Assembly (NCBI RefSeq): GCF_030378165.1
Contig: NZ_CP119766.1
Location: forward strand, 1,488,001 to 1,552,000
Direction of reading: 5' to 3'
Origin: Flavobacterium panacagri
Lineage (GTDB): Bacteria > Bacteroidota > Bacteroidia > Flavobacteriales > Flavobacteriaceae
DNA: 64,000 bases
Below, one piece after another: positions 17 through 14,107 of the stretch. Every line of letters starts with the position of its first letter. Within the stretch, counting starts at the first letter, position 1. Under the pieces are notes generated by a model, which worked only from the letters and a program-made list of their open reading frames with translations, had not been told where the DNA came from and ran no database searches. A program made the translations under genes and the position numbers.

Positions 17-208
17 ATGCTGAAAAACATTTTAAATCTTAATGGCGCTCAGACTATAACTAGAAATGAGCAGAAAGCTATGAGAGGTGGAATTCCTGAT
101 TGCTGGATTTATGCAATTGAAGCAGGATGCATTTTGATACCGCCAGGCGAAACTTGTCCGATAAATACAGCATCAGGTATTTGTGATACAAGTCGTCTTT
201 GTTGTTGA
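17..208 (+). CDS. Double-glycine leader peptide precursor, bacteriocin/RiPP-like, six-Cys core
   Basis: This 63-residue precursor has an N-terminal leader of about 25 residues ending in RGG, followed by a 38-residue core. The leader has the look of Bacteroidota double-glycine leaders: a short MLKNILNL start, a polar middle (RNEQKAM) and a GG cleavage site at residues 24-25. The core holds six cysteines (C29, C38, C47, C56, C62, C63), enough for three disulfides or for thioether chemistry, and ends in Cys-Cys. Downstream lie a C39-peptidase ABC exporter and a HlyD adaptor, the machinery that cleaves behind GG and exports the product. No modifying enzyme is visible on this side; the window starts just upstream, so further precursors or enzymes may lie off the edge. 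Export as a disulfide-bonded peptide is inferred. Antibacterial or signalling activity is unknown. Confidence 0.8.
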   Translation: MLKNILNLNGAQTITRNEQKAMRGGIPDCWIYAIEAGCILIPPGETCPINTASGICDTSRLCC

Positions 209-282
209 TTTTTAACTTTTTTAAAAGTAATACGATATAGCCTTATTTAGAATTTAGTCATGTTTTTTTTGAATGTATAGGC

Positions 283-400
283 GCTCGATCGTGGAACATT
301 GAGCATTTTCTCAGTATTGATGATTGGTACTGAGATTCTTAGGAGTTGGCCGCTGTGTTTAATTTTAATTGGTTAGGGTAAAACCGCGGCCATGTCCTAA
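283..400 (+). ncRNA. Candidate structured RNA between peptide gene and exporter
   Basis: No convincing gene lies between the peptide stop and the exporter, but the strand folds well. GCTC at 283-286 pairs with GAGC at 301-304. CTCAGTA at 310-316 pairs with TACTGAG at 328-334. A two-part stem joins TTAGGA (339-344) to TCCTAA (395-400) and GGCCGC (348-353) to GCGGCC (386-391), with a 3x3 internal loop. A strong terminator follows at 439-471, so this could be a small RNA or the structured 3' end of the peptide transcript. A frame without a start codon also crosses it, so a gene remnant is an alternative. Confidence 0.35.
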
Positions 401-438
401 AGAAATTGTGTTGCTGGTAATTTGTTTATAAATACCCA

Positions 439-471
439 AACAGAGAAGATTTATATCTTCTCTGTTTTTTT
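439..471 (+). terminator. Rho-independent terminator
   Basis: A perfect 12-bp stem (AACAGAGAAGAT / ATCTTCTCTGTT) with a TTAT loop runs straight into a T tract. It separates the peptide-gene transcript from the exporter genes, which therefore need their own promoter or read-through. Confidence 0.85.
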
Positions 472-525
472 ATGGATTAACAAGAATTTTTTTTCCTACT
501 TTAGTCTTGAATAAATCAAAATAAA

Positions 526-2718
526 TTGAAAAAATTCGCTCACTACAGACAAGCCGATCATAAAGATTGCGGGCCTACATGTTTAAAAATTATAGCTAAA
601 TATTACGGTAAGACAATCAACATTCAAGAGTTGAGAGATTTTAGCGAGACTACTCGTGAAGGTAGTAATCTGCTTTTTTTGAGCGATGCTGCCGAAAAAA
701 TCGGCTTTAGGACTTTAGGAGTAAAATTATCTGTACAGAGAATTGAAGAAGCTCCCCTGCCTTGTATTCTTCATTGGAATAAAGATCATTATGTAGTTCT
801 ATATAAAGTAAAAAAAGACAAATATTATATTTCAGATCCTGCTTTTGGACTTCTTGAATACAACAAAGAAGAGTTTGTAAAATTCTGGATAGGAAATAAT
901 GCTGATGATACAACAAAAGAAGGTATAGCATTATTAATAGAAGCAACTCCTCTATTTTTTGAATCTGATTTTGAGAAAGAAGAAAATAAAGGACTAGACT
1001 TTCGATTTCTATCCAAATATTTATTTCAGTACAAATCCTTTTTAATGCAGCTTGCAATTGGACTTCTTGCGAGCAGTTTACTTAATTTAATTTTTCCGTT
1101 TTTAACGCAAAGTATTGTAGATGTTGGGATTCAGAATCAGAATATTAACTTCATCTATTTAATTCTTTTTGCAATGCTGTTTGTTTTTGCTGGAAGAACC
1201 GGTTTAGAATTAATTAGGAGCTGGATTTTACTTCATTTGTCTACCAGAATCAGTATTTCTCTTATCTCAGATTTCTTTATAAAACTAATGAATCTGCCCA
1301 TTTCGTTTTTTGATGTTCGAATGACCGGAGATATTATGCAGCGAATTAATGATCATCGCCGTATAGAAAAAATACTGACAACCTCTTCATTAAATGTTCT
1401 TTTTTCAGTTATAAACATGTTCGTCATGGGAGCTGTTTTGGCCTATTTCAATCTGCAGATATTTTTAGTTTTCTTTATTGGCAGTGTTTTTTATTTTGGA
1501 TGGATCACACTATTCTTAAAAAGGAGAGAAGCTTTAGATTATAAGCGTTTTGCTGAAGTTTCAAAAGAACAGAGCAAAGTAATGGAGCTCATTAATGGAA
1601 TGCAGGAAATAAAGCTTCATAATGCGGAAAAACAAAAACGCTGGGGATGGGAGCATGTTCAGGCTAGACTTTTTAGAGTTTCGATAAAAGGACTGATTTT
1701 AGAGCAGACACAAACGATTGGCTCTTCTGTAATTAACGAATTAAAAAATATATTTATTATTCTGCTTTCTGCAAAATTGGTAATAGAAGGCTCTATAACG
1801 CTGGGTATGATGCTTGCCATTAGCGCTATTGTTGGAAGTTTAAATGGTCCTATAACGCAGCTAATAGAATTTGTAAGAGAATTCCAGGATGCTAAAATTT
1901 CGCTGGCAAGATTATCTGAAATTCATGAAAAAGAAGATGAACTGCAGCAAGAATCTCATCAAACAACCGATGTTCCTTTTGATGCCGACATTGAGATCAA
2001 AAACCTTTCGTATCGTTACATGGGTTCTGATACTCCAGTTCTAGATGATTTAAGTTTAGTGATTCCGGCTAAGAAGGTGACTGCAATTGTAGGTGTCAGT
2101 GGCAGCGGAAAAACAACTTTGATGAAACTGCTCTTAAAGTTTTATGAACCTGAAAAAGGAGAAGTGACAATTGGAAGTACGCAGCTCAAAAATATTTCTC
2201 AGAAAGCTTGGAGATCCAATGTTGGTGCAGTAATGCAGGAAGGATATATTTTTGGTGATACCATTGCCAATAATATTGCCTTAGGTTCTGATCGAATTGA
2301 TAAAGAACGACTCATTTATGCTACAGATGTTGCTAATATTAAAGAATATATTGCAGGATTGCCTTTGGGATTTAATACTAAAATAGGAGGAGATGGAATG
2401 GGAATGAGTACAGGACAGAAGCAGCGTCTTTTAATCGCAAGAGCAGTTTACAAAAATCCTGAAATTTTATTTTTTGATGAAGCTACTTCGGCTTTGGATG
2501 CTAATAATGAAAAAGAAATTATGAGAAAACTGGATATCTTTTTCGAAAATAAAACAGTAGTAGTAATTGCGCATAGATTAAGTACAGTAATGAATGCAGA
2601 TCAAATTGTCGTTTTGGACAAAGGAAAAATTATCGAAATTGGAAATCATTCTGCTTTAGTAGAGCAAAAAGGCAATTACTTTGAATTAGTTAAAAACCAG
2701 CTTCAGTTAGGAAATTAA
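526..2718 (+). CDS. Peptidase-containing ABC transporter (C39 family bacteriocin exporter)
   Basis: The protein cleaves double-glycine leaders and exports the cargo across the inner membrane using ATP. Its N-terminus is a C39 cysteine peptidase: Q9 for the oxyanion hole, the catalytic Cys in DCGPTC (C15), H88 and D104. An ABC exporter membrane domain follows (about residues 165-450, several hydrophobic helices). The C-terminal nucleotide-binding domain has Walker A GVSGSGKTT (about 521-530), signature STGQKQR (a variant of SGGQ) and Walker B ILFFDEATSAL near 650. The length of 730 residues is normal for the family. The start is TTG; the next residues (KKFAHYRQADHKDCG) match the usual beginning of the peptidase domain, so TTG is credible. 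The adaptor gene starts two bases after the stop, so the two are surely co-expressed. Confidence 0.93.
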   Translation: MKKFAHYRQADHKDCGPTCLKIIAKYYGKTINIQELRDFSETTREGSNLLFLSDAAEKIGFRTLGVKLSVQRIEEAPLPCILHWNKDHYVVLYKVKKDKYYISDPAFGLLEYNKEEFVKFWIGNNADDTTKEGIALLIEATPLFFESDFEKEENKGLDFRFLSKYLFQYKSFLMQLAIGLLASSLLNLIFPFLTQSIVDVGIQNQNINFIYLILFAMLFVFAGRTGLELIRSWILLHLSTRISISLISDFFIKLMNLPISFFDVRMTGDIMQRINDHRRIEKILTTSSLNVLFSVINMFVMGAVLAYFNLQIFLVFFIGSVFYFGWITLFLKRREALDYKRFAEVSKEQSKVMELINGMQEIKLHNAEKQKRWGWEHVQARLFRVSIKGLILEQTQTIGSSVINELKNIFIILLSAKLVIEGSITLGMMLAISAIVGSLNGPITQLIEFVREFQDAKISLARLSEIHEKEDELQQESHQTTDVPFDADIEIKNLSYRYMGSDTPVLDDLSLVIPAKKVTAIVGVSGSGKTTLMKLLLKFYEPEKGEVTIGSTQLKNISQKAWRSNVGAVMQEGYIFGDTIANNIALGSDRIDKERLIYATDVANIKEYIAGLPLGFNTKIGGDGMGMSTGQKQRLLIARAVYKNPEILFFDEATSALDANNEKEIMRKLDIFFENKTVVVIAHRLSTVMNADQIVVLDKGKIIEIGNHSALVEQKGNYFELVKNQLQLGN

Positions 2719-2720
2719 TT

Positions 2721-4013
2721 ATGGCAGAAGAAAAAGATACCTTTGAATTAAGAAGTGAAGAAGTTCAGGACATTCTAACCAAAGTACCACATTGGATGAT
2801 ACGCTGGGGAACGGTCTTGATATTTGCCATTATTGTCATGCTGTTTTTTGTGTCTTGGTTTGTTAAATATCCAGATGTTGTAACAGCCGAGATAGTAATT
2901 ACAACTAATATTCCTCCTGAAAAAATTGTTTCAAAATCCTCAGGAAGAATTGAAGCTATTCTGGTAAAAGATAAAATGGTAGTTTCAAAAAATAGTACAC
3001 TTGCCATTATTGAAAATACAGCCAACTACAAAGATGTTTTCTTGCTGAAAAGCATTGTCGATGGTTATAATATTAATGCTGTAAAAGCGTTTCCTTTTGA
3101 ATTGTTAAAAAACAAGCAGTTAGGAGAAATAGAAAGTGCTTTTGCCGTTTTTCAGAAAGATTATCAAGCGCAGGAACTTAATCAAAATCTGCATCCTTTT
3201 GAAGTTGAAAGTAGGGCGCAAAGCTTTGAGAAAGTACAGATTAAAGAAAGATTGGAGATTCTGCAGCAACAAAAAGGAATAAATGAAAGTGAATTAGAGC
3301 TTCAAAAAAATGAAGTAGCCCGTTTTGAAGTTTTATTCAAAAAAGGAATTATTTCGGCTCAGGAGATGGAAGCAAAGAAACTTGGATTCTTGCAAGCAGA
3401 AAAGAGTTATAGAGGGCTTTTGTCGTCAATTTCTCAATTAAGGTCTTCTTTGATAGATAATACAAAATCAAGTCAGAATTCACGTATAAATAGCACGAGA
3501 GAAGAAGTAAATTTAGGACGAAGTATGGCGCAGTCTTTTTATCAGCTGAAAAAAGTGATAAAAGATTGGGAATTGGCTTATACTTTAAAATCTTCCATTA
3601 GTGGTGTAGTAACTTTTCTTCAGGTTTGGAATGAAAGCCAGACTATAAATGTTGGTGATAATGTTTTTTCGATAATTCCAGATGCTAAAAATGGTTTTGT
3701 CGGAAAAGTGAAAGCTCCGGCATTAAATTCTGGGAAAATAAAAGTAGGGCAGAGAGTTAATATTCGTCTGGCAAATTATCCAGACCGCGAATTTGGTGTG
3801 CTGAAAGGTGAAATCAAAAATATTTCCCTAGTTCCAGATAAAGATGGGAATTTACTCGTAGATGTTACACTTCCAAACGGATTAAAAACATCTTATGATA
3901 AGCAAATTGTCTTTCAGCAGGAAATGAAAGGTAGGGCTGAAATTGTAACCGAAGATCTTAGATTAATAGAAAGAGTTTTGTATCAGTTTAAAAGTATTTT
4001 TGAACAGGTTTAA
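2721..4013 (+). CDS. HlyD-family membrane fusion protein (exporter adaptor)
   Basis: This is the periplasmic adaptor expected to link the C39 ABC exporter to an outer-membrane channel such as TolC. It has a short cytoplasmic start, one transmembrane segment (about residues 29-50), a first half of a lipoyl/barrel-sandwich region (near 60-95), a long helical hairpin rich in Gln, Glu and Lys (about 130-275), then the second lipoyl half and beta-barrel region (about 285-400). The size of 430 residues fits bacteriocin-type HlyD proteins. No outer-membrane partner is in the window; presumably a general TolC is used. Its stop overlaps the stop of the convergent trmN6-like gene by four bases, so there is no room for an intergenic terminator. 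Confidence 0.9.
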   Translation: MAEEKDTFELRSEEVQDILTKVPHWMIRWGTVLIFAIIVMLFFVSWFVKYPDVVTAEIVITTNIPPEKIVSKSSGRIEAILVKDKMVVSKNSTLAIIENTANYKDVFLLKSIVDGYNINAVKAFPFELLKNKQLGEIESAFAVFQKDYQAQELNQNLHPFEVESRAQSFEKVQIKERLEILQQQKGINESELELQKNEVARFEVLFKKGIISAQEMEAKKLGFLQAEKSYRGLLSSISQLRSSLIDNTKSSQNSRINSTREEVNLGRSMAQSFYQLKKVIKDWELAYTLKSSISGVVTFLQVWNESQTINVGDNVFSIIPDAKNGFVGKVKAPALNSGKIKVGQRVNIRLANYPDREFGVLKGEIKNISLVPDKDGNLLVDVTLPNGLKTSYDKQIVFQQEMKGRAEIVTEDLRLIERVLYQFKSIFEQV

Positions 4014-4717
4014 AATTTTAAATAAAAATCTTTAGCCAACTCAATATATTCAGGAGTGTAAACGTGTCTTTCGATTTCGATAACTAACTCGTTTATTTCA
4101 ATTTCAGAAATTTCATTTCGGCTAAAAGCCAATAGACTACGTTTGATTTCTGATTTAGAAGTTCCTTTAACACGTGTAATTTTTAACGGATACAATTCGG
4201 ATTCTTTCGCCAAAGCGATGAATTTTTGTTCTTCTTTGAAAGGAATAATAATGGCTAAAACTCCATTTTCTGAAAGTAATAAATCGGCGGCTTCAACAAT
4301 TTCTTCAAATGGCATTGCATCTTGAAATCTTGCTAAATCTCGTTGCTCATTATCCGTTTTATAATTTTCAGCATAAAAAGGCGGATTTGAAACAATCAAA
4401 TCATATTCGTCTTCTGGCTCATCAATAAATTCATCTAAACCAGCATGAAAGCAAAATAAGCGATCGCCCCATGGAGAGGCTTCGAAATTTTCTACTGCCT
4501 GTTCGTATGCTTCTTCATCAATTTCAAGAGCGTCAATTTGTTCTGCATTAGTTCGTTGCGCAAGCATTAAAGCAATAATTCCAGTTCCAGCACCAATATC
4601 TAAAACACTAAAAGGATTGTGATTAATTGGTGTCCATGCGCCAAGTAAAACACCATCTGTGCCAACTTTCATCGCTGTTTTGTCTTGTTTTACAGAGAAT
4701 TGCTTAAATTGAAACAT
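4010..4717 (-). CDS. trmN6: tRNA1(Val) adenine-37 N6-methyltransferase family protein
   Basis: This SAM-dependent methyltransferase of the YfiC/TrmN6 group is expected to methylate A37 of a valine tRNA. Visible hallmarks are the N-terminal FKQFSVKQDKTAMKVGTDGVLLGAW block typical of this group (within residues 3-30), motif I DIGAGTG (about 41-47) and the adenine-N6 catalytic motif NPPFY (near 110). The length of 235 residues is standard. It lies downstream of rpsP and rimM on the same strand, about 80 bases after rimM, so it probably belongs to the same translation-related transcript. It converges on the HlyD gene with overlapping stops. Confidence 0.88.
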   Translation of the reverse strand: MFQFKQFSVKQDKTAMKVGTDGVLLGAWTPINHNPFSVLDIGAGTGIIALMLAQRTNAEQIDALEIDEEAYEQAVENFEASPWGDRLFCFHAGLDEFIDEPEDEYDLIVSNPPFYAENYKTDNEQRDLARFQDAMPFEEIVEAADLLLSENGVLAIIIPFKEEQKFIALAKESELYPLKITRVKGTSKSEIKRSLLAFSRNEISEIEINELVIEIERHVYTPEYIELAKDFYLKF

Positions 4718-4797
4718 TTTGATTTATGATTTGATAAATTGCCAATTCGTAATGCAGTTAGAAAACTGAATACTAAAAACGGTCACTGAGCACTAAA

Positions 4798-5322
4798 TTA
4801 AAGGTACATCTCAACAAGACCTTCTGGAAGATTCATAATGACTTTTTTGTTTTCACGATCGATTTTTACTAAAAAATTATCAATCATTGGAACTAGGATT
4901 TCTACTTCGCCATTCAAAACTTCAAAAAGAGGCTGAGCAGTAGAATCATTAATAGAAGTAATTTTCCCGAAAACGCCCAAACGCTGATCTTCGATTTCAA
5001 AACCGATAACTTCGTGGAAATAAAATTTGTTACCAGTAAGTTTTGGTAACATAGTTAGAGGAAGGTAAATACCATTTCCAACAAGAGCATCAGCATCTTC
5101 TTCAGTATTTACATCTTCAAAACGAACTCTAAGAAAGTCGTTTTTGTGCATTGAGCTAGATTCAATAAAAAAAGGAACCAAGTGTTTGTTGTGTTCAACA
5201 AACACTGATTCCAGATTTTCGTATAACTCAGGTTCGTCTGTGTCTAAATAGATCAGAACTTCCCCCTTGAAACTAAATTTTTTAGCGATTTTACCTAAAT
5301 AAAAACAGTCTTCTTTACGCAT
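4798..5322 (-). CDS. rimM: Ribosome maturation factor RimM
   Basis: RimM is a 30S assembly factor that works on the S19/head region of the small subunit. The 174-residue protein shows the N-terminal RimM barrel (FYLGKIAKKFSFKGEVLIYL, residues 7-26, the conserved G-x-hG-x-G stretch) and a C-terminal PRC-barrel (about 95-174, containing HEVIGFEI and LVPMIDNFLVKID). It starts 15 bases after the rpsP stop, the usual rpsP-rimM pairing, so the two are co-transcribed. Confidence 0.95.
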   Translation of the reverse strand: MRKEDCFYLGKIAKKFSFKGEVLIYLDTDEPELYENLESVFVEHNKHLVPFFIESSSMHKNDFLRVRFEDVNTEEDADALVGNGIYLPLTMLPKLTGNKFYFHEVIGFEIEDQRLGVFGKITSINDSTAQPLFEVLNGEVEILVPMIDNFLVKIDRENKKVIMNLPEGLVEMYL

Positions 5323-5337
5323 TATCGCTAAGTAAAA

Positions 5338-5898
5338 TTATGCTTCAGTTGTTTCGTTATTCTCTTCAGCAGCAGGAGCTTCTTCAGTTGCTTCAGCAAC
5401 TTCTTCTGTAGCCTCAGTAGCTTGTGCAGCGGCAACAGCTTCAGCTTGTGCAGCAGCAGCATCAGCAACACGTTTAGCGTTAACTTCTTTTTCAGCTTTT
5501 AAAGCTTTAGCTTTAACATCAGCTTGTGCTTTTGATAAACCATCTTTTTTAGCATCAACTTTTCCAGCTTTAGCCTCTAACCAAGCCGCTAATTTAGCGT
5601 CAGCTTGTTCTTGAGTTAAAGCTCCTTTACGGATACCTCCATCAAGGTGGTGTTTCAATAAAGCACCTTTGTAAGAAAGGATAGCTCTTGCAGTATCAGT
5701 TGGTTGAGCACCATTGTGTAACCATTTAACTGCGCTGTCAAGGTCTAATTCAACAGTTGCTGGGTTAGTGTTTGGATTGTAAGTACCGATTTTCTCTAAG
5801 TATTTACCATCTCTTTTTGAGCGTGCATCTGCAGCTACAACCCAGTAAAAAGGTTTTCCTTTTTTACCGTGTCTTTGTAATCTAATTTTTACTGACAT
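5338..5898 (-). CDS. rpsP: 30S ribosomal protein S16 with Ala/Glu-rich tail
   Basis: The first 80 or so residues are a standard S16 (VKIRLQRHGKKGKPFYWVVA, then RDGKYLEKIGTYNP). It continues to 186 residues, about twice the E. coli length, with a Lys/Ala-rich part and then a low-complexity acidic tail of Ala, Glu and Thr. Such tails are common in Bacteroidota S16. It is first in the rpsP-rimM-trmN6 group. Upstream, TATCTTTG on the minus strand (5949-5956) is a good -7 element, but no TTG sits at the right distance. Confidence 0.96.
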   Translation of the reverse strand: MSVKIRLQRHGKKGKPFYWVVAADARSKRDGKYLEKIGTYNPNTNPATVELDLDSAVKWLHNGAQPTDTARAILSYKGALLKHHLDGGIRKGALTQEQADAKLAAWLEAKAGKVDAKKDGLSKAQADVKAKALKAEKEVNAKRVADAAAAQAEAVAAAQATEATEEVAEATEEAPAAEENNETTEA

Positions 5899-6089: not shown

Positions 6090-6572
6090 ATGAAAAAATA
6101 CTTTTACTTTTTATCATTTTTACTTATCATAACATCTTGTACAGAGGAAGTAAGGTTTAATAATCCAGCTTTTCAAACCTTAAAAGATAACACTTTTTGG
6201 AGATCACAAAGTTATTGGTCAGGAACGCAATCTAGTGGCGTTTTTACTATTGAAGGAATACTAGGTTATGAAAAAATAAGTTTTCAGTTTCCCCAGCAGC
6301 CGTCACAAAAGACATATGTTTTAGGGGTAGATGATTTTACAAAGGCGACCTACAAAAACTCTTATACCGGCCAAGAAGCGGAGTTTACGACAGGAGCAGG
6401 AAGAGGCAGCGGACAAATTATAGTGACCGAATACAATACGACTGAAAAAACTATTTCAGGTACATTTAAATTTACGGCAGTAAATATTGATGACACAAAT
6501 GAGAAAAAAGAAATACGTTTTACCGAAGGTGTGTTTTACAAAATTCCAGTTGTGTTAACTTCTAATTTCTGA
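6090..6572 (+). CDS. Small lipoprotein, DUF6252-like
   Basis: This 160-residue lipoprotein has signal peptide MKKYFYFLSFLLIITSC with the lipobox Cys at residue 17. The mature part is predicted beta-rich, with repeated patterns such as GVFTIEG and ISGTFKFTA that resemble DUF6252-type lipoproteins, where a calcycin-like sheet is built from GxF motifs. That assignment is from memory and tentative; no function is known to me. A TACTTTTG -7 element (6062-6069) lies about 20 bases before the ATG, indicating its own promoter; no -33 TTG is at proper distance. Confidence 0.75.
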   Translation: MKKYFYFLSFLLIITSCTEEVRFNNPAFQTLKDNTFWRSQSYWSGTQSSGVFTIEGILGYEKISFQFPQQPSQKTYVLGVDDFTKATYKNSYTGQEAEFTTGAGRGSGQIIVTEYNTTEKTISGTFKFTAVNIDDTNEKKEIRFTEGVFYKIPVVLTSNF

Positions 6573-6690
6573 TAGGCTGTTTTTTTACGTTTATAGCTTT
6601 TAAAATCTAAATAAAAACATAAATAAACTAATATATAATAGATTACAGAATAATAAGATTACATTTGCTTATTATTATAAAAAAGTATCT

Positions 6691-7038
6691 ATGAATATTT
6701 TCGTTGGAAGCCTTCCATTCAGTATTGAGGAAGCAGATTTAAGAGAGTCTTTTGAGGCTTATGGAACAGTTGACTCTGTTAAAATTATTACTGATAAATT
6801 TACTGGAAGAAGTAAAGGCTTTGGTTTTGTTGAAATGCCAAATGATAGCGAAGCTCAGAAAGCTATCGACGAATTGAATGGTGCTGTTGTTGCAGGACGT
6901 ACAATCGTTGTAAATAAATCTGAGCCAAAACCAGAAGGCGAAAGAAGAAGTTTTAATAACAATCGTGGTGGAAATGATCGCGGTGGTTACGGAAACAACC
7001 GTGGAGGAAATGACCGCGGAAACAGAGGAGGATATTAA
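6691..7038 (+). CDS. RNA-binding protein with RRM and RGG-like tail
   Basis: This is a single-domain RNA recognition motif protein. RNP2 (NIFVGSLPF) is at residues 2-10 and RNP1 (KGFGFVEM) near 43-50; the fold fills residues 1-80. The tail is a glycine/arginine/asparagine-rich stretch with repeated NNRGGNDRGG units, like the RGG tails of cold-shock-type RRM proteins of cyanobacteria and Bacteroidota. It likely binds single-stranded RNA without sequence strictness and may act as an RNA chaperone; that is inferred from the family. A TACATTTG -7 element lies near 6660 and a strong terminator follows the gene, so it is monocistronic. Confidence 0.92.
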   Translation: MNIFVGSLPFSIEEADLRESFEAYGTVDSVKIITDKFTGRSKGFGFVEMPNDSEAQKAIDELNGAVVAGRTIVVNKSEPKPEGERRSFNNNRGGNDRGGYGNNRGGNDRGNRGGY

Positions 7039-7059
7039 TATTTTTTTTCTAAAATATAA

Positions 7060-7088
7060 AAGGGATCAACGAAAGTTGATCCCTTTTT
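7060..7088 (+). terminator. Rho-independent terminator after RRM gene
   Basis: The stem AAGGGATCAAC / GTTGATCCCTT closes on a GAAA tetraloop and is followed by T residues. It ends the RRM gene transcript. Confidence 0.88.
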
Positions 7089-7178
7089 TAATGTCTAAAA
7101 ATTGTTTACAAGTTTAACGTTCTTGCAACCTGACCCGATGCTTTAGCCGAACGGGTGAAGCAAACAAAAATGAACTAA

Positions 7179-8234
7179 TTATACATTCGCTGCTAACCAG
7201 TCACCTACTTCTTTAGTACCGTAGGCTTTACCTCCATTTGCTAAATCTTCAGTAACTACTCCAGCTTCTAAAGCTTTGTTCACAGCATCTCTCATTGCTT
7301 TTCCTTCTTCCATCAATCCGAAGTTTTCGAACATCATAGCAGCAGATAATACAGTAGCCATTGGGTTGGCAATGTTTAATCCTGTAGCTTGTGGGTATGA
7401 ACCGTGAATAGGTTCGAATAAAGATACTTCAGCTCCCATAGAGGCAGAAGGCATTAATCCCATTGAACCTGAAATTACAGAAGCTTCGTCTGTTAAGATA
7501 TCACCAAATAAGTTTTCAGTGATTAATACATCATAAGAGTTTGGCCATTGAACTAAACGCATTGCTACCGCATCAACAAATTCGTAGCTCACTTCAACCT
7601 CTGGGTAGTCTTTTTCCATTGCCTGAACCGTTTCTCTCCATAAACGAGAAGTTTCCAAAACGTTTGCTTTATCAACGCAGCATAATTTTTTAGAACGTGT
7701 CATTGCTAATTCGAAACCTTTTTTAGCTAAACGCTGTACTTCGGCTCTTGTGTAAACGCAGTTGTCGTAAGCTGTATCTCCGTTATCTTTTCTTCCTTTT
7801 TCACCAAAGTAAATTCCGCCAGTTAATTCTCTTAAGAAAACTAAATCAGTTCCTTCAATTCTTTCTCTTTTTAGTGGCGATTTATCTAATAAAGATGGGA
7901 ATGTAAAAGTTGGTCTTACGTTTGCAAACAAACCTAAAGCTTTACGCATTTTTAGTAAACCTTGTTCTGGACGAACTGGTGCAGAAGGGTCGTTATCATA
8001 TTTAGGGTGGCCAATTGCTCCAAAAAGAACGGCATCAGCATTTTTACAAACTTCGTGTGTTGCATCTGGATAAGGTTCTCCTACTGCATCAATTGCGGCA
8101 GCACCAGTTAAAGCTGGTTTCCAAGTAATTTCATGTCCAAATTTTTGCGCAATTGCATCAGATACTTTTACTGCTTGATCGATTACTTCTGGTCCGATTC
8201 CGTCTCCGGCTAAAAGGGCTATGTTTAATTTCAT
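7179..8234 (-). CDS. leuB: 3-Isopropylmalate dehydrogenase
   Basis: LeuB oxidises and decarboxylates 3-isopropylmalate with NAD in leucine synthesis. The 351-residue protein has the N-terminal [11 protein letters not shown] block (residues 7-17), the substrate-binding [12 protein letters not shown] loop (near 133-144) and the [10 protein letters not shown] / EPIHGSYP region near the C-terminus typical of the isocitrate/isopropylmalate dehydrogenase family. It is the last gene of the leuC-leuD-leuA-leuB run on the minus strand. Confidence 0.96.
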
Positions 8235-8261
8235 TTTTAAATATTTATTATTTTAAGGTTC

Positions 8262-8344
8262 AAAGTGACAAAGAGGCAAAGGTTCAAAGTTTTAAAAGCA
8301 GACTAAAATCTTTGTCTCTTTGTCACTTTAAACCTTTGTCACTA
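8262..8344. repeat. Intergenic palindrome, AAAGTGACAAAG family
   Basis: The gap between leuA-type gene and leuB holds a 20-bp inverted repeat with one mismatch (AAAGTGACAAAGAGGCAAAG at 8262-8281 against 8310-8329), followed by a further CCTTTGTCAC unit. The same word family recurs at 49811-49860. It has no T tract and lies inside an operon, so it is probably a dispersed palindromic element rather than a terminator. Confidence 0.75.
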
Positions 8345-8347
8345 TAA

Positions 8348-9868
8348 TTAAGTTATAATGTTAAGCATTTTTTGTGTCGCAATAATCGCTGCAACGGTTT
8401 GGTCAGAGTCTAATCCGCGGGTTTTGAATTCTTTTCCGTTGTTTACCCATGTGATAATGGTTTCGCACAATGCATCAGAGCTACTTCCGGGAGGGATTCT
8501 TACTGCATAGTCAATCAGTTTTGGAAGCGTCAATTTTTTGCTTTTGTAAATCTTGGATAAAGCATTCATAAAAGCATCAAACTGACCGTCTCCTTGTGCG
8601 TTTTCTTCGATTATTTCTCCGTTTAAATTTAAAGATAAAGTCGTAGAGGGACGCATTCCTTTAGAATGAACCAGCATATAAGAGTTTATCGTGATTTTTT
8701 CTTCGTAAGTATGACTGTCCAAAACATCCGAAATAATGTATGGTAGATCTTCCTTTGTAACTGTTTCTTTTTTGTCACCCAGTTCAATAATTCTTTGCGT
8801 AACCAATTTCAAATCTTCGCTGTTTAATTTTAAACCTAATTCCTGAAGATTTTTTTCGATATTGGCTTTTCCAGAGGTTTTTCCTAAAGCGTATTTTCTT
8901 TTTCTTCCAAAACGTTCTGGAAGTAAATCATTAAAATAAAGATTGTTTTTATTATCTCCATCAGCATGGATTCCAGCTGTTTGTGTAAAAACATTATCTC
9001 CAACAATTGGTTTGTTGGCAGGAATTCTGTAACCAGTAAAGGTTTCTACCAGTTTACTTACAGAGTACAAAGATGTTTCTTTTATATTGATTTTTACTTC
9101 TGGCAGATAATCATTAATTACGGCAACTGTGCTTTCAAGTGGCGCATTTCCAGCACGTTCTCCCATTCCGTTTACGGTTACGTGAAGTCCGTTGATTCCG
9201 GCTTTTATGGCTTCCATAACATTAGCGACACTTAAGTCGTAATCGTTATGAGCATGGAAATCAAAATGAATGGTTGGATATTTGGCTCTGATTTTTGAAA
9301 TAAATTCAAAAGTTAGAGACGGAATTAAAACCCCTAAAGTATCAGGAAGTAAAACTCTTTTAATTGGCTGTGTTGCTAAGAAATCTAGAAATTGAAAAAC
9401 GTAATCTTGGGAATTTCGCATTCCGTTGCTCCAGTCTTCCAAGTAAACATTAGTTTCAATATTGTTTTCTTTAGCTAAAGAAATGATTTGAGCGATTTCA
9501 GAAAAGTGTTGTTCAGGTGTTTTTTTCAATTGATGCGTTAAGTGATTCATTGAGCCTTTGGTCAATAAATTTTGTACTTTGGCGCCGGCTTTTTTCATCC
9601 AGTCAATTGAAACGCCTCCGTCAACAAACGTAAGAACTTCAATTCTGTTTATATAGCCGCGTTCTTCAGCCCATGAAGTAATGCCTTTTACGGCTTGAAA
9701 TTCTCCTTCGCTCACGCGAGCCGAAGCAATTTCGATTCTATCAATATTTAATTCCTCCAGCAACAATTGCGCAATGGTTAATTTTTCTGCGGCAGAAAAT
9801 GAAACTCCTGAGGTTTGTTCACCATCACGGAGTGTCGTATCCATTATTTCAATTTTTCTTTTTTCCAT
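8348..9868 (-). CDS. leuA: 2-Isopropylmalate synthase / citramalate synthase family enzyme
   Basis: This Claisen-type acyl transferase condenses acetyl-CoA with a 2-oxo acid. The N-terminal HMGL-like barrel has DTTLRDGEQT (about residues 10-19), HAHNDYDL and NGMGERAGNAPLE, the metal and substrate motifs; the C-terminal LeuA regulatory domain (about 380-500) has PPGSSSDALCE. The longer open frame begins at a TTG; I chose the ATG four codons in (MEKRKIEIMDTT). Its position between leuD and leuB points to isopropylmalate synthesis. However, the catalytic half resembles the divergent group that includes (R)-citramalate synthases, so pyruvate as acceptor (isoleucine route) is a real alternative. 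The leuA symbol rests on operon context. Confidence 0.8.
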   Translation of the reverse strand: MEKRKIEIMDTTLRDGEQTSGVSFSAAEKLTIAQLLLEELNIDRIEIASARVSEGEFQAVKGITSWAEERGYINRIEVLTFVDGGVSIDWMKKAGAKVQNLLTKGSMNHLTHQLKKTPEQHFSEIAQIISLAKENNIETNVYLEDWSNGMRNSQDYVFQFLDFLATQPIKRVLLPDTLGVLIPSLTFEFISKIRAKYPTIHFDFHAHNDYDLSVANVMEAIKAGINGLHVTVNGMGERAGNAPLESTVAVINDYLPEVKINIKETSLYSVSKLVETFTGYRIPANKPIVGDNVFTQTAGIHADGDNKNNLYFNDLLPERFGRKRKYALGKTSGKANIEKNLQELGLKLNSEDLKLVTQRIIELGDKKETVTKEDLPYIISDVLDSHTYEEKITINSYMLVHSKGMRPSTTLSLNLNGEIIEENAQGDGQFDAFMNALSKIYKSKKLTLPKLIDYAVRIPPGSSSDALCETIITWVNNGKEFKTRGLDSDQTVAAIIATQKMLNIIT

Positions 9869-9880
9869 ATTGATATTCAA

Positions 9881-10127
9881 ATTTCTAAAGGGGTGGATAG
9901 TTGATATCCCTGTTTTAATTTTGACGCTGATTTAACGGATTCGCTTTCGTGAAGACGCTGGTAAAAACGGATTTTTATTATTAGTAAAATAAAAATCTGT
10001 GTTAATTCGCTTCCGATAGTTATCGAGATTGCGAAAACAAATCAGTTTCATCCGCGTCCTATTTATTCTAGAAAGACCCGAGAGGTTTTGAAGCCTGTCG
10101 GGTCTAATAGACTGAATGATATTGCTA
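9881..10127. repeat. Intra-operon gap with hairpin repeat
   Basis: The gap between leuD and the leuA-type gene has no gene. It holds a degenerate palindromic stretch (words such as AAAAATCTGTGTTAATTCGC) and a hairpin AGACCCG / CGGGTCT at 10074-10105 of the same CCCGACAGG family found near 32830 and 36900. Both look like dispersed repeats inserted in the operon. Confidence 0.6.
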
Positions 10128-10724
10128 TTAGTAAGGAAGTTTATCGGCGAAAGCCTTAATATCTTCTTTCATATCTTGTAAATAATCAATATCGTCAAAA
10201 CCATTAATTAGGTTGTTCTTTTTGTAACCGTTGATAGCAAAAGATTCTTGCTCACCAGTTGACAGCAAAGTAATCGTTTGGTTTGGAAGATTGATTTCTA
10301 ATTCTGTATTAGGATCAGCTTCGATAGCTTTGAAAATATTAGCTAAAAATTCTGGACTGATTTGTACTGGTAAAACACCAATATTCAAACAGTTTCCTTT
10401 GAAGATATCAGCAAAGAAACTAGAAACTACGGCACGGAATCCGTAATCGTAAACTGCCCATGCAGCATGTTCTCTAGAAGATCCAGAACCGAAGTTTTTT
10501 CCTCCAACCAAGATTTTTCCACTGTAAGTAGGATTGTTTAAAACGAAATCAGCTTTTGGAGTATCGTCTCCGTTGTATCTCCAGTCTCTAAAAAGGTTGT
10601 CTCCAAAACCTTCACGTTTTGTAGCTTTTAAGAAACGAGCCGGAATGATTTGATCTGTATCTACGTTCTCAATTGGCAACGGTACGCCGCTGCTTGTAAG
10701 TATGTTAAATTTATCGTATGCCAT
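10128..10724 (-). CDS. leuD: 3-Isopropylmalate dehydratase small subunit
   Basis: LeuD is the swivelling small subunit of isopropylmalate isomerase and joins LeuC to convert 2- into 3-isopropylmalate. The 198-residue protein shows the family's [14 protein letters not shown] (about residues 19-32), [13 protein letters not shown] near 75-87 and the [14 protein letters not shown] region. It follows leuC after about 165 bases and precedes the leuA-type gene. Confidence 0.96.
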
Positions 10725-10890: not shown

Positions 10891-12285
10891 CTAAAATAAC
10901 TCGCGCGGATCTGTTAGTTTTCCTGTAACAGCAGCAGCAGCAGCCATAATTGGACTTGCAAGAAGCGTTCTTGAACCAGGTCCTTGACGACCTTCAAAGT
11001 TTCTGTTTGAAGTACTTACTGCATATTTTCCAGCAGGAACTTTATCGTCGTTCATTGCTAAACAAGCAGAACAACCCGGCTGACGTAATACGAAACCAGC
11101 TTCAGTCAAAATATCTAAAATTCCTTCTTCTTTAATCTGTGCTTCAACAACGTGAGAACCCGGAACTAACCAAGCCGTAACATTATCTGCTTTTTTTCTT
11201 CCTTTTACAATTTCAGCAAAAGCTCTAAAATCTTCAATACGTCCGTTTGTACAACTTCCTAAGAAAACGTAGTCGATTTGTTTTCCAATCATTACGTCGT
11301 CTTCGTTGAAGCCCATATAAGCTAAAGACTTTTTGTAAGTTTCCTCACCTCCTTCAACTTCTTTTGCATTCGGAATATGTTTTGTGATACCAATTCCCAT
11401 TCCTGGATTAGTACCATAAGTAATCATTGGTTCGATATCTTCCGCTTTAATGTTTAATTCAGCATCAAATACAGCGTCAGCATCCGTTTTTAAAGTTTTC
11501 CAGTACTCAACAGCTTTTGTCCAAGCTTCTCCTTTTGGAGCGTAAAGTCTTCCTTCTAAGAAATCGAAAGTAGTTTGGTCAGGAGCAATCATTCCTCCGC
11601 GAGCTCCCATTTCGATACTTAAATTACAAACTGTCATACGACCTTCCATAGTCATGTTTTCAAAAACATCACCAGCATATTCAACAAAATATCCTGTACC
11701 TCCAGAAGTAGTTAATTGAGCAATAATATAAAGCGCCACGTCTTTTGGGCCAACACCTTTACTCAATTGACCGTTTACGTTAATACGCATTTTCTTTGGT
11801 TTAGGCTGCATAATACATTGAGTTGAAAGCACCATTTCAACTTCAGATGTTCCGATACCAAAAGCAATTGCTCCAAAAGCACCGTGAGTAGACGTATGCG
11901 AATCTCCACATACAATAGTAGCACCTGGCAAAGTAATTCCGTTTTCGGGACCAACTACGTGTACAATTCCATTTTTTTGGTGACCTAATCCCCAGTGCGA
12001 AATTCCGTATTCTTTAGCATTATCTTCAAGAGCCTGAAGCTGATTAGCAGAAAGCGGGTCTTCAACTGGTAAGTGTTGGTTTATGGTTGGTGTATTATGG
12101 TCGGCAGTTGCAAAAGTACGCTGTGGGTATAAAACGTTAACGCCTCTTGATTTTAATCCTAAAAAAGCAACAGGGCTCGTAACTTCATGAATGAAATGGC
12201 GGTCAATAAAAAACACATCTGGCCCATCTTCAATTTTACGCACTACATGTGAATCCCATACTTTGTCAAATAATGTCTTACTCAT
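10891..12285 (-). CDS. leuC: 3-Isopropylmalate dehydratase large subunit
   Basis: LeuC is the 4Fe-4S aconitase-type catalytic subunit of isopropylmalate isomerase. The 464-residue protein has [13 protein letters not shown] (about residues 130-142), the cluster-binding Cys in FLGSCTNGR (near 345) and [12 protein letters not shown] (near 405-416), giving the three cluster cysteines. It is the first gene of the leu operon, with a good promoter about 65 bases upstream. Confidence 0.97.
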
Positions 12286-12350
12286 TTTTTATTTTTTTTA
12301 ATTGTAATTTCTATAACCACAGCAATTCCCTGTTCATTATAATAGCAAAA

Positions 12351-12380
12351 CAAAAGTAAAAAAAGATAAAAAAGCGTCAA
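12351..12380 (-). promoter_or_regulatory. Bacteroidota-type promoter of the leu operon
   Basis: Read on the minus strand: TTG, 19-base spacer, TACTTTTG, a full match to the Flavobacterium consensus TTG-N17-23-TAnnTTTG. Predicted transcription starts near 12344, leaving a leader of about 60 bases. I see no leucine-rich leader peptide in it. Confidence 0.8.
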
Positions 12381-12462
12381 TTTCGATATTTCATTTTATA
12401 CGATACCCAAACTAATTTACAAATTGTGAAACCACTTTTGTAAACTAAAATTTGAAAGAAAA

Positions 12463-12552
12463 ATGATTAAGAAATGGATTTGCTTTTTCTTTTTCGGCTT
12501 TAATTTTTCTTGTTTGTTTTTTGTTTTAATAGTTTGCAAATTTATCTCATAA
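12463..12552 (+). CDS. Possible 29-residue hydrophobic small protein
   Basis: The 530-base gap between leuC and the next gene holds only the leu promoter and this short frame. It would encode a basic MIKKW start followed by a very hydrophobic Phe/Cys/Val/Leu segment, like a single-pass membrane peptide, with a purine-rich GAAAGAAAA ahead of the ATG. In such AT-rich DNA a Phe-rich frame of this size can arise by chance, so this is a weak call. Confidence 0.2.
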   Translation: MIKKWICFFFFGFNFSCLFFVLIVCKFIS

Positions 12553-12817
12553 TTACTATAAAATATAAGAATTTGATTGAAAAAATCTAACAAAATGAGT
12601 AAAAATAGTAATAATTGTTATTTTTGATTTCTTTGCAGAAAAGATGCTTTTCGGGTTTTTTAAAGCTTTTAAAGGAGTTTTTTCGACACTATTTAGATTC
12701 AATAAAAGGTCAAAATACTACGACATCCAAGAGGTGTATTTTTGTGAAATTTTATGAATTTTAAGAGAAAAAAGGACTAATAAATAAGAATGCCTTTTTT
12801 TAAAATTTAATTGTTTT

Positions 12818-13594
12818 TTAAAGATAAATAAAATGCATTCCGTAATCCATTCGATATGACTTAATTTTTATTTTATTTCCGTGATATTCAACTTGATGGA
12901 TTCGTGCATTTTGTTTGTCAAAATAACAATTTCTATAGATGCTTTCAGATTGTTCGCTTAATTTCATTAAGTCATAGTTTCTACGTAATCTCATCTGGGC
13001 AGATTGGGTGCTTTCATCTGGAATATCTGAGTTCATACGAAGAGTTTTTAATATTTCAATGCTATCTTTTGCTTGAATAATTTGGCAATCTAGCAAGGAA
13101 TAAAAAGATTCATGAATAAGATTTAATCTTTTCAGCGACTTACTACGGTCATTATTATTAATTAATTTGTCAATGGCAAGATTAAATTCTTTTGAAAAAG
13201 TAGTATTGATTTTAGGAACCTTTGGTATTAAGGTGTCAAAAGGAAACTCCCAATAATCTCGATATTTGCTATTGAAAAGCGGAATAGTGTAAATCTCATT
13301 TTTACCATTAATTAAAACGAGAATTTGATTTCTGTTTTTATAATACTGAGGTTGCGAATAAAGTCGAATCTCAGTATTGAATTCTCCTTCTCTTACACTT
13401 CTGGTAAATGAGAATTCACGGGTTTTGGCTGTATTCTTATCAGCGGTAAGCTGTGGATATTTTTTAATCAAATTTTGAATAGAAGTATTGATTTTAGGCT
13501 CGATACTTTGATTACAGCTCACGGTAATTAATAAAACTAAAAAAGATAAAAAAGTATATTGTAGTCTACAGTTTATTACAGATTTATTTACCAT
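12818..13594 (-). CDS. Uncharacterised lipoprotein
   Basis: This 258-residue protein is not one I recognise. Its N-terminus has a hydrophobic segment FLSFLVLLITVSC with a lipobox Cys near residue 27, so it is probably a lipoprotein, with an unusually long n-region. The mature part is charged, with no membrane segment and no motif I can name; a helical stretch near 150-220 is rich in Leu, Arg and Ser. It is followed on the same strand, after a short gap, by nothing but the leu-operon gap, and preceded by another small lipoprotein gene 48 bases upstream, so the two may be co-transcribed. Confidence 0.7.
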   Translation of the reverse strand: MVNKSVINCRLQYTFLSFLVLLITVSCNQSIEPKINTSIQNLIKKYPQLTADKNTAKTREFSFTRSVREGEFNTEIRLYSQPQYYKNRNQILVLINGKNEIYTIPLFNSKYRDYWEFPFDTLIPKVPKINTTFSKEFNLAIDKLINNNDRSKSLKRLNLIHESFYSLLDCQIIQAKDSIEILKTLRMNSDIPDESTQSAQMRLRRNYDLMKLSEQSESIYRNCYFDKQNARIHQVEYHGNKIKIKSYRMDYGMHFIYL

Positions 13595-13642: not shown

Positions 13643-14107
13643 TTATTTGTAAGATTTGTATTTTTCAGGATTGTAAAGTCTTTTCTCTTCATAATCATTC
13701 GGATATTTTTTAAGATCATTTTCCTTTTCTTTAATCAAAAAAATGTAATTCAAATACGGTTTTTCTTTTGTAGGATAGGAAAGTATGATCACTTTCTCGT
13801 TAAAGCTTACAATATCATAAGAGAAATCTCTCCATGTCAAAATACTGTCTTCAGATACGGACCATTTTTCAGGATCTCCAGCCATATATCGATCTTCTGG
13901 CTTATCGGTAAATTTCCCATTTTCATCCCTGTTATAACGATAAGATAACTGATCGTCTTTAAACTTGAAATAGGTAAAATAGGAGTCACAATTTGTATAA
14001 TAACACCAACATTCATCCGACTTTGTTTCTAACGCTTTTTCGATAGGATTTTTTTGGGAACAGCCAGTTAAAATCAGTATCAGAAAAAATAAAAAGTAAG
14101 TTTTCAT
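13643..14107 (-). CDS. Uncharacterised small lipoprotein
   Basis: From the ATG the product begins MKTYFLFFLILILTGCSQK, a clear lipoprotein signal with Cys at residue 16. The longer frame begins at a TTG five codons earlier and is unlikely. The mature protein (154 residues in all) is rich in Tyr, Lys, Asp and Glu and has a CWCYYTNCDSYF cluster near residues 33-44, three cysteines close together that might form a disulfide. No family recognised. It sits just upstream of another lipoprotein gene on the same strand and diverges from dnaE. Confidence 0.7.
   Translation of the reverse strand: MKTYFLFFLILILTGCSQKNPIEKALETKSDECWCYYTNCDSYFTYFKFKDDQLSYRYNRDENGKFTDKPEDRYMAGDPEKWSVSEDSILTWRDFSYDIVSFNEKVIILSYPTKEKPYLNYIFLIKEKENDLKKYPNDYEEKRLYNPEKYKSYK

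Follow-up and report, generated by a model that had tools for sequence, protein, structure and literature searches.

Bacteroidetocins, for which class IIf has been proposed, are the closest described systems to the locus analysed here. Their loci encode a five-transmembrane (TM) protein, a double-glycine (GG) peptide that contains Cys, a C39-ABC exporter and a thiol oxidoreductase. Activity is weakened when either the TM or the oxidoreductase gene is deleted, the set of four is enough in E. coli, and an obvious immunity gene is lacking (PMC6671954). The present locus belongs to Flavobacterium panacagri (contig NZ_CP119766.1), and was approached from a window of 64,000 nucleotides (bases 1488001-1552000 of the 5.98-Mb single-contig genome). 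An earlier note on this window had singled out a six-Cys GG peptide, its exporter and an HlyD adaptor. These genes form the downstream portion of a larger locus that lies mostly before window base 1, and the upstream DNA was read as region L003, whose position 14001 is window base 1. The interval of the earlier note leaves out an oxidase, two sibling precursors, a regulator and Cys-less peptides, all before base 1, as well as a structured RNA inside it. Judging from sequence, the locus probably (rough probability 0.7) produces peptides, introduces disulfide bonds into them and exports them, controlled by a regulator of its own.

All the gene roles of a bacteroidetocin locus appear to be present (Cys-containing GG precursor, oxidoreductase, membrane protein and C39-ABC exporter), and the two can be called functionally close, by gene content and not by sequence. 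The core of the locus precursor, with six Cys, also has the two or more Cys expected of a mature bacteroidetocin. Its leader has 25 residues, against 15-16 in bacteroidetocins, and the oxidase domains are fused to each other and to a C39-like domain, unlike the bacteroidetocin oxidoreductase as described. The multi-precursor cassette, the TPR-AraC regulator, the Cys-less peptides and the RNA are features of the locus that are absent from the bacteroidetocin account in its available portion, and so is the HlyD adaptor, “HlyD” not occurring in the main text of that paper (PMC6671954). The locus was not filed as a bacteroidetocin because the leader length differs, domains and parts are added, and the likeness is by description only.

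Six-Cys precursor and precursor cassette

The first gene of the locus inside the window (17..208, + strand) encodes a 63-aa precursor, with a leader (residues 1-25) ending in GG and a 38-aa core (residues 26-63) whose six Cys follow the pattern C-X8-C-X8-C-X8-C-X5-CC, as the earlier note had described. A search of 5.8 billion proteins gave six full-length matches (70-86% identity) and one partial match; since such homologues exist, the open reading frame (ORF) is not a chance one. The precursor showed no Pfam or NCBIfam match at E <= 0.1, and its profile had no match below E 1.9 among PDB sequences. Absence of the Cys pattern from relatives, one of the outcomes that the earlier note had said would refute its reading, was not observed. 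In 61 distinct cores, collected by a Cys-independent similarity search of fetched loci at 50% core identity or more (the set was the same at 40%), none of the six Cys varies, and the invariant core positions number 16 of 38 with the Cys included.

Conservation of the locus was followed in the best 80 of 434 relatives (80-locus set), all titled Flavobacterium, Flavobacteriaceae or [Flexibacter]; upstream features were counted in the 75 loci and downstream features in the 72 loci with enough sequence. At least 21 of the 80 loci recur in the other fetched locus set, and merged peptide counts are of distinct sequences. The regulator lies upstream in 75/75 loci. The downstream features are GG precursors (67/72), the exporter (72/72), HlyD (70/72) and the structured RNA (72/72), and the six-Cys peptide was found by pattern in 52/72 and by similarity in 62 of all 80 loci. 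More widely, 61 of 199 Flavobacterium genomes have the oxidase, and a profile search of 296 Bacteroidota genomes detected it in 33, spread over 12 of 139 genera.

The further GG precursors that the earlier note proposed to look for upstream exist: two Cys-containing siblings of 60 aa with four Cys (L003:13570-13752, + strand) and 43 aa with two Cys (L003:13824-13955, + strand) precede window base 1. The composition of the precursor cassette varies across Flavobacterium, and distant loci hold quite different cassettes. An even number of Cys was seen in 127 of 131 cassette precursors of a first set of 61 loci (L003 and 60 regions, L034-L093). Among the 268 distinct precursors of the merged set, those with at least three Cys were even in 231 cases and odd in 5, vs. 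83 even and 75 odd for control small ORFs of the same DNA. Clustering at 60% identity (n = 112) left 99 even and 10 odd clusters, and 3 lacking Cys; greedy clusters were used for the cores because single-linkage clustering chained nearly all of them together. The paired Cys numbers, together with an oxidase gene in the same run, point to disulfides. No lanthipeptide or other modification enzyme was recognised beside the precursors, the remaining ORFs from regulator to exporter being short, overlapping or unsupported.

Several results count against so simple a picture. Controls with at least one Cys are themselves uneven (275 even and 467 odd, vs. 254 even and 11 odd for precursors); the cores were cut by regular expression, some retaining leader residues, and the parity P values ignore relatedness. 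The unfiltered homologue search gave 78 core-covering matches, including unrelated precursors joined through the leader, in which Cys was invariant at two positions only. Finally, 18 of the 80 loci, some with incomplete sequence, lack the six-Cys core while the remaining locus parts persist.

Two variations of the cassette were also observed. L065 (about 6200-10700) carries 14 Cys-rich GG precursor genes, 13 of them distinct and two identical, between oxidase and exporter. L135 has a precursor-like ORF (9607-9783, translated by eye) with the usual leader lacking GG; GG-less leaders of this kind also occur in several loci (e.g. L051, L056, L057, L058 and L060), so the L135 ORF may represent a family rather than decay.

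Oxidase, exporter and adaptor

Before window base 1 lies the gene of a three-part membrane oxidase (L003: about 11979-13541, + strand), in which a C39-like domain lacking the catalytic Cys is fused to a VKOR and a DsbA-like domain. The VKOR domain scored above the PF07884 cut-off, and Cys 187, 195, 264 and 267, which correspond to the VKOR loop pair and CXXC, were invariant in 20 homologues; matches to VKOR structures among PDB sequences were weak. The N-terminus has the C39 fold, and no invariant Cys precedes position 187 in the same homologues; the Pfam C39 matches of seven oxidases begin at profile positions 31-47. The segment bearing the catalytic Cys is missing, unlike in the peptidase domains of PCAT1, LahT and ComA. 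VKOR-thioredoxin fusion oxidases share the four VKOR Cys and a thioredoxin-like CXXC domain, and differ in that the locus oxidase has the N-terminal C39-like domain and adjoins GG precursors. This arrangement of domains suggests leader-guided disulfide formation.

The presence of a C39-ABC exporter and an HlyD adaptor downstream of the precursor was confirmed by domain matches. The exporter (526..2718, + strand, 730 aa) matched Peptidase_C39, ABC_membrane and ABC_tran well over the Pfam cut-offs, contains the motifs DCGPTC, DHYVV and SDPA, and combines the C39 Cys, His and Asp with TM and ATPase domains, as in PCAT proteins. The HlyD-type periplasmic adaptor (2721..4013, + strand, 430 aa, HlyD_3 match) starts 2 bases past it. 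The genome has two exporter matches at E <= 1e-60, and the second does not reach the C39 region. As several precursors share this single C39-covering exporter, its earlier description as “dedicated” to the six-Cys peptide was not supported; the other part of that proposal, a secreted disulfide-rich GG peptide, held up in view of the conserved Cys, the even counts in relatives and the oxidase gene. The exporter starts with UUG here (window 526) and in 71 of the 80 loci, and with GUG in one (not found in eight); this conserved rare start perhaps limits exporter dosage.

Regulator, operator and Cys-less peptides

The N-terminus of the regulator (L003:8697-10454, + strand) is hydrophobic, and is followed by TPR repeats, a TM helix (394-412) with positive charges after it, and an AraC domain. 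A single TM helix with positive charges after it suggests, as a hydropathy prediction, that the TPR repeats are outside and the AraC domain inside. In 46 of 49 full-length homologues a single TM helix separates TPR from AraC, and in the other three two helices are predicted there. The genome holds no second full-length match, and seven further matches span the AraC part only. RRNPP receptors are cytoplasmic TPR receptors that respond to a re-imported peptide. The regulator resembles them in joining TPR to a DNA-binding domain beside small exported peptides, and differs in the predicted position of TPR outside and AraC inside; peptide re-import would then be unnecessary.

Two TATAATTNATAAA-type sites 23 bp apart were found upstream of the oxidase in 80/80 loci (this genome and 79 of the 80-locus set), and at up to three mismatches this double site occurs once in the whole genome. 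Distant oxidase genes were compared using complete oxidase matches with at least 2.5 kb of upstream sequence, for operator and peptides alike. Tandem AATTTATAAATT at a spacing of 22-23 bp and up to four mismatches was present at 13 of the 15 genes with an adjacent regulator and at none of the 20 lacking one, and in the loci that hold both kinds of oxidase gene, one of either, the tandem operator is confined to the copy linked to the regulator (6/6). Base-shuffled upstream sequences attained the strict operator score in 4 of 1340 trials. On the oxidase tree, the presence of the regulator requires at least six changes on well-supported branches, and operator and regulator may be read as having been gained or lost together several times.

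Between regulator and oxidase lie five GG peptides of 47 aa that lack Cys (L003:10465-11400, - strand), four of them identical in protein sequence, with a spacing of 198 bp and Gly/Pro-rich cores. Of 75 loci in the 80-locus set, 73 have such peptides at the corresponding position, one to seven per locus, and 217 of 226 distinct opposite-strand peptides have no Cys in the core. In a wider set, 44 of 47 regulator-linked oxidase genes, and 0 of 20 lacking a regulator, have Cys-less peptides next to them by a uniform rule (12/15 and 0/20 for distant loci only); the first regular expression had given 36/47 and 0/20. These peptides are candidate ligands of the TPR-AraC regulator. TPR proteins in peptide clusters of Bacteroidales have been suggested to bind pheromones (PMC10352776). 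A description of the regulator-operator-peptide circuit was not found in the literature searched. To our knowledge, no peptide pheromone circuit is established for Bacteroidota.

An alternative is that the Cys-less peptides are separate secreted products that share the exporter and are not ligands. This is nearly an even proposition, though slightly disfavoured: five repetitive Gly/Pro-rich peptides in one genome resemble a bulk product more than a trace signal, and three distant regulator loci have no candidate by the uniform rule, but the peptides keep their place between regulator and oxidase in almost every locus and follow the regulator by that rule, albeit a post hoc one.

Other observations weigh against the circuit as a whole. 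The N-terminal hydrophobic segment is present in only 27 of the 49 full-length regulators. The looser operator test gave 14/15 genes with and 3/20 lacking a regulator, and the stricter four-mismatch test was picked after seeing it; L065 and L087, both distant regulator loci, fail the strict test. Regulator-bearing loci also score at several other operator spacings (40 at 16 bp and 36 at 24 bp, vs. 43 at 23 bp), owing to AT-rich DNA and a site that resembles itself when shifted, and a very loose scan adds weak double sites in most of the 80-locus set. The uniform peptide rule was written with candidates already in view, and the first regular expression missed 8 of the 15 distant regulator loci; inspected by eye, six of these have Cys-less candidates, two of them with no clean GG (L069 and L074), the L072 candidate contains Cys, and L087 has none.

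Structured RNA

Between the six-Cys precursor gene and the exporter lies a structured RNA (226..415, + strand), in which a closing stem P1 (226-236/405-415) surrounds four hairpin domains, and immediately 3' of it an intrinsic terminator with hairpin and U tract (441..471, + strand). A 261-nt piece containing the RNA folds at z -8.3; without the flanking sequence the domain reaches z -6.7, and its reverse strand z -4.2. Both sides changed in 25 of 71 pairs (81 distinct rows), vs. a mean of 13.6 in shuffled alignments and 9-14 in slid versions, and in 197 cells vs. 24-41 in slid versions; in P1, this applied to 9 of 11 pairs. Two points reduce the force of these counts: the alignment was fitted to a related model and the structure is the fold of the window itself, and the last hairpin (helix 7) keeps just 75.5% of pair cells, some pairs being mostly broken.

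No Rfam 15 family was found at the gathering threshold for this RNA, either in two members searched with lax filters or in a search of the whole of L003, and nothing came near it, so that membership of a known family was set aside. The same library detects Flavo-1 elsewhere in L003. That Flavo-1 RNA (RF01705, 74.1 bits, L003:5534-5609, + strand) is upstream of the locus and distinct from the RNA at 226-415. A covariance model, run with the stricter Infernal filters that lose weak matches, found the structured RNA in 32 of 199 Flavobacterium genomes, every time downstream of the oxidase; these are exactly the 32 genomes in which the oxidase shares 59% identity or more with that of this genome. 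The RNA is also present where the six-Cys core was not found (e.g. L135), so its job is not tied to the six-Cys peptide. A description of the RNA was not found in the literature searched.

Under loose criteria, 79 of the 87 RNA copies have a terminator-like site behind them. Loci L146, L149, L150, L153 and L162 have two copies each, with no terminator detected after the first (0/5). Between RNA loops and start regions of locus genes, the strongest predicted duplex (-16.0) joins loop 5 to the start of the 43-aa precursor, in a single sequence. Two other explanations of the structure were rejected. A DNA cruciform does not suit the frequent G-U pairs of P1 or the much weaker folding of the reverse strand (-39.5 vs. 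-67.8 kcal/mol for the forward), and a leader peptide does not suit the sole ATG frame, which by eye is not conserved between species.

The RNA may end the precursor transcript, and probably sets the precursor-to-exporter dosage or mRNA stability. That it is instead a riboswitch or attenuator of the exporter, and not a 3'-end or trans-acting RNA, is a less favoured proposal: a closed domain of several helices with a terminator behind it, immediately ahead of the exporter gene, would suit it, but P1 and the terminator stem are distinct in the predicted fold, and inspection by eye, with no program search, revealed no alternative antiterminator pairing.

Role of the six-Cys peptide

The chances that the peptide is used against related bacteria are put at about even, antagonism being somewhat likelier than signalling. 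Laterosporulin and actifensin are defensin-like bacteriocins and, like the locus core, small disulfide-rich bacterial peptides, a likeness by description and not by sequence. Several features speak against a weapon. Four residues of the core are acidic and one is basic, a net charge of about -3 by sequence, and the core is about as conserved as the leader (pN/pS, the ratio of nonsynonymous to synonymous polymorphism, 0.24 vs. 0.21 in 62 distinct six-Cys genes collected with a pattern demanding GGIPxCW and the final CC), while more variation would be expected of a diversifying weapon. The first two bacteroidetocins described carry charges of +6 and +2 (PMC6671954). No immunity gene was recognised at the locus, though this is equally so for bacteroidetocin loci. 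An acidic core under cross-species purifying selection, unlike its variable neighbours, weakens the simple cationic-bacteriocin reading, as far as the sequences go.

The peptide might alternatively be a signal or self-directed factor, with only its variable cassette neighbours antagonistic. Purifying selection with 16 invariant positions, the acidic core, and its persistence in most loci while the neighbours change would fit such a role, but the six invariant Cys and the lack of any candidate receptor do not favour it, and the Cys-less peptides next to the TPR regulator make better candidates for a signal; we regard it as the less probable role. A bacterial beta-defensin-like fold is improbable, in spite of the six Cys ending in CC, as the best Foldseek matches of the predicted model, to human beta-defensin-1, reflect no significant fold resemblance.

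Proposed mechanism and significance

For a locus that makes, oxidises and exports disulfide-bonded peptides, the following steps are proposed. The GG-leader precursors with four, two and six Cys would be translated from their conserved ORFs. The proteolytically dead C39-like domain of the oxidase may bind the leader, and the VKOR and DsbA-like domains, with their catalytic Cys in place, may form the disulfides on the periplasmic side. The exporter, which has the catalytic residues, would cut after GG and export the core through HlyD, with an outer-membrane channel presumably encoded elsewhere completing export. The membrane regulator, with predicted periplasmic TPR and cytoplasmic AraC, may activate the oxidase-precursor run through the tandem 23-bp operator with which it co-occurs, and the product would be a 38-residue peptide with three disulfides.

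Taken together, these parts allow a more tentative proposal, that of a self-sensing Bacteroidota system with Cys-less signals, a TPR-AraC/AATTTATAAATT switch, a dead-C39 oxidase and a dosage-setting RNA of a new class. The Cys-less GG peptides would leave through the same exporter and be sensed in the periplasm by the TPR domain, and the AraC domain would bind the tandem operator and turn on the arsenal of disulfide peptides, for which the oxidase would select substrates through its leader-binding domain while the RNA balanced precursors against exporter.

Beyond the locus, the genes on the - strand at window 4010-5898 are presumably housekeeping (methyltransferase, RimM-like and S16-like). 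In 38 of 64 loci the methyltransferase gene is no more than 1.5 kb away from HlyD, so the site of the locus seems fairly fixed.

The six-Cys observation is real and, alone, modest; the novel parts are the regulator-operator-peptide circuit and the RNA, which is noteworthy for its strong structure, its covariation and its restriction to this locus. The locus offers a concrete model, naming an oxidase, an exporter, a regulator, an operator and a candidate signal, of how the production of disulfide-rich secreted peptides may be carried out and controlled, perhaps in many Bacteroidota.
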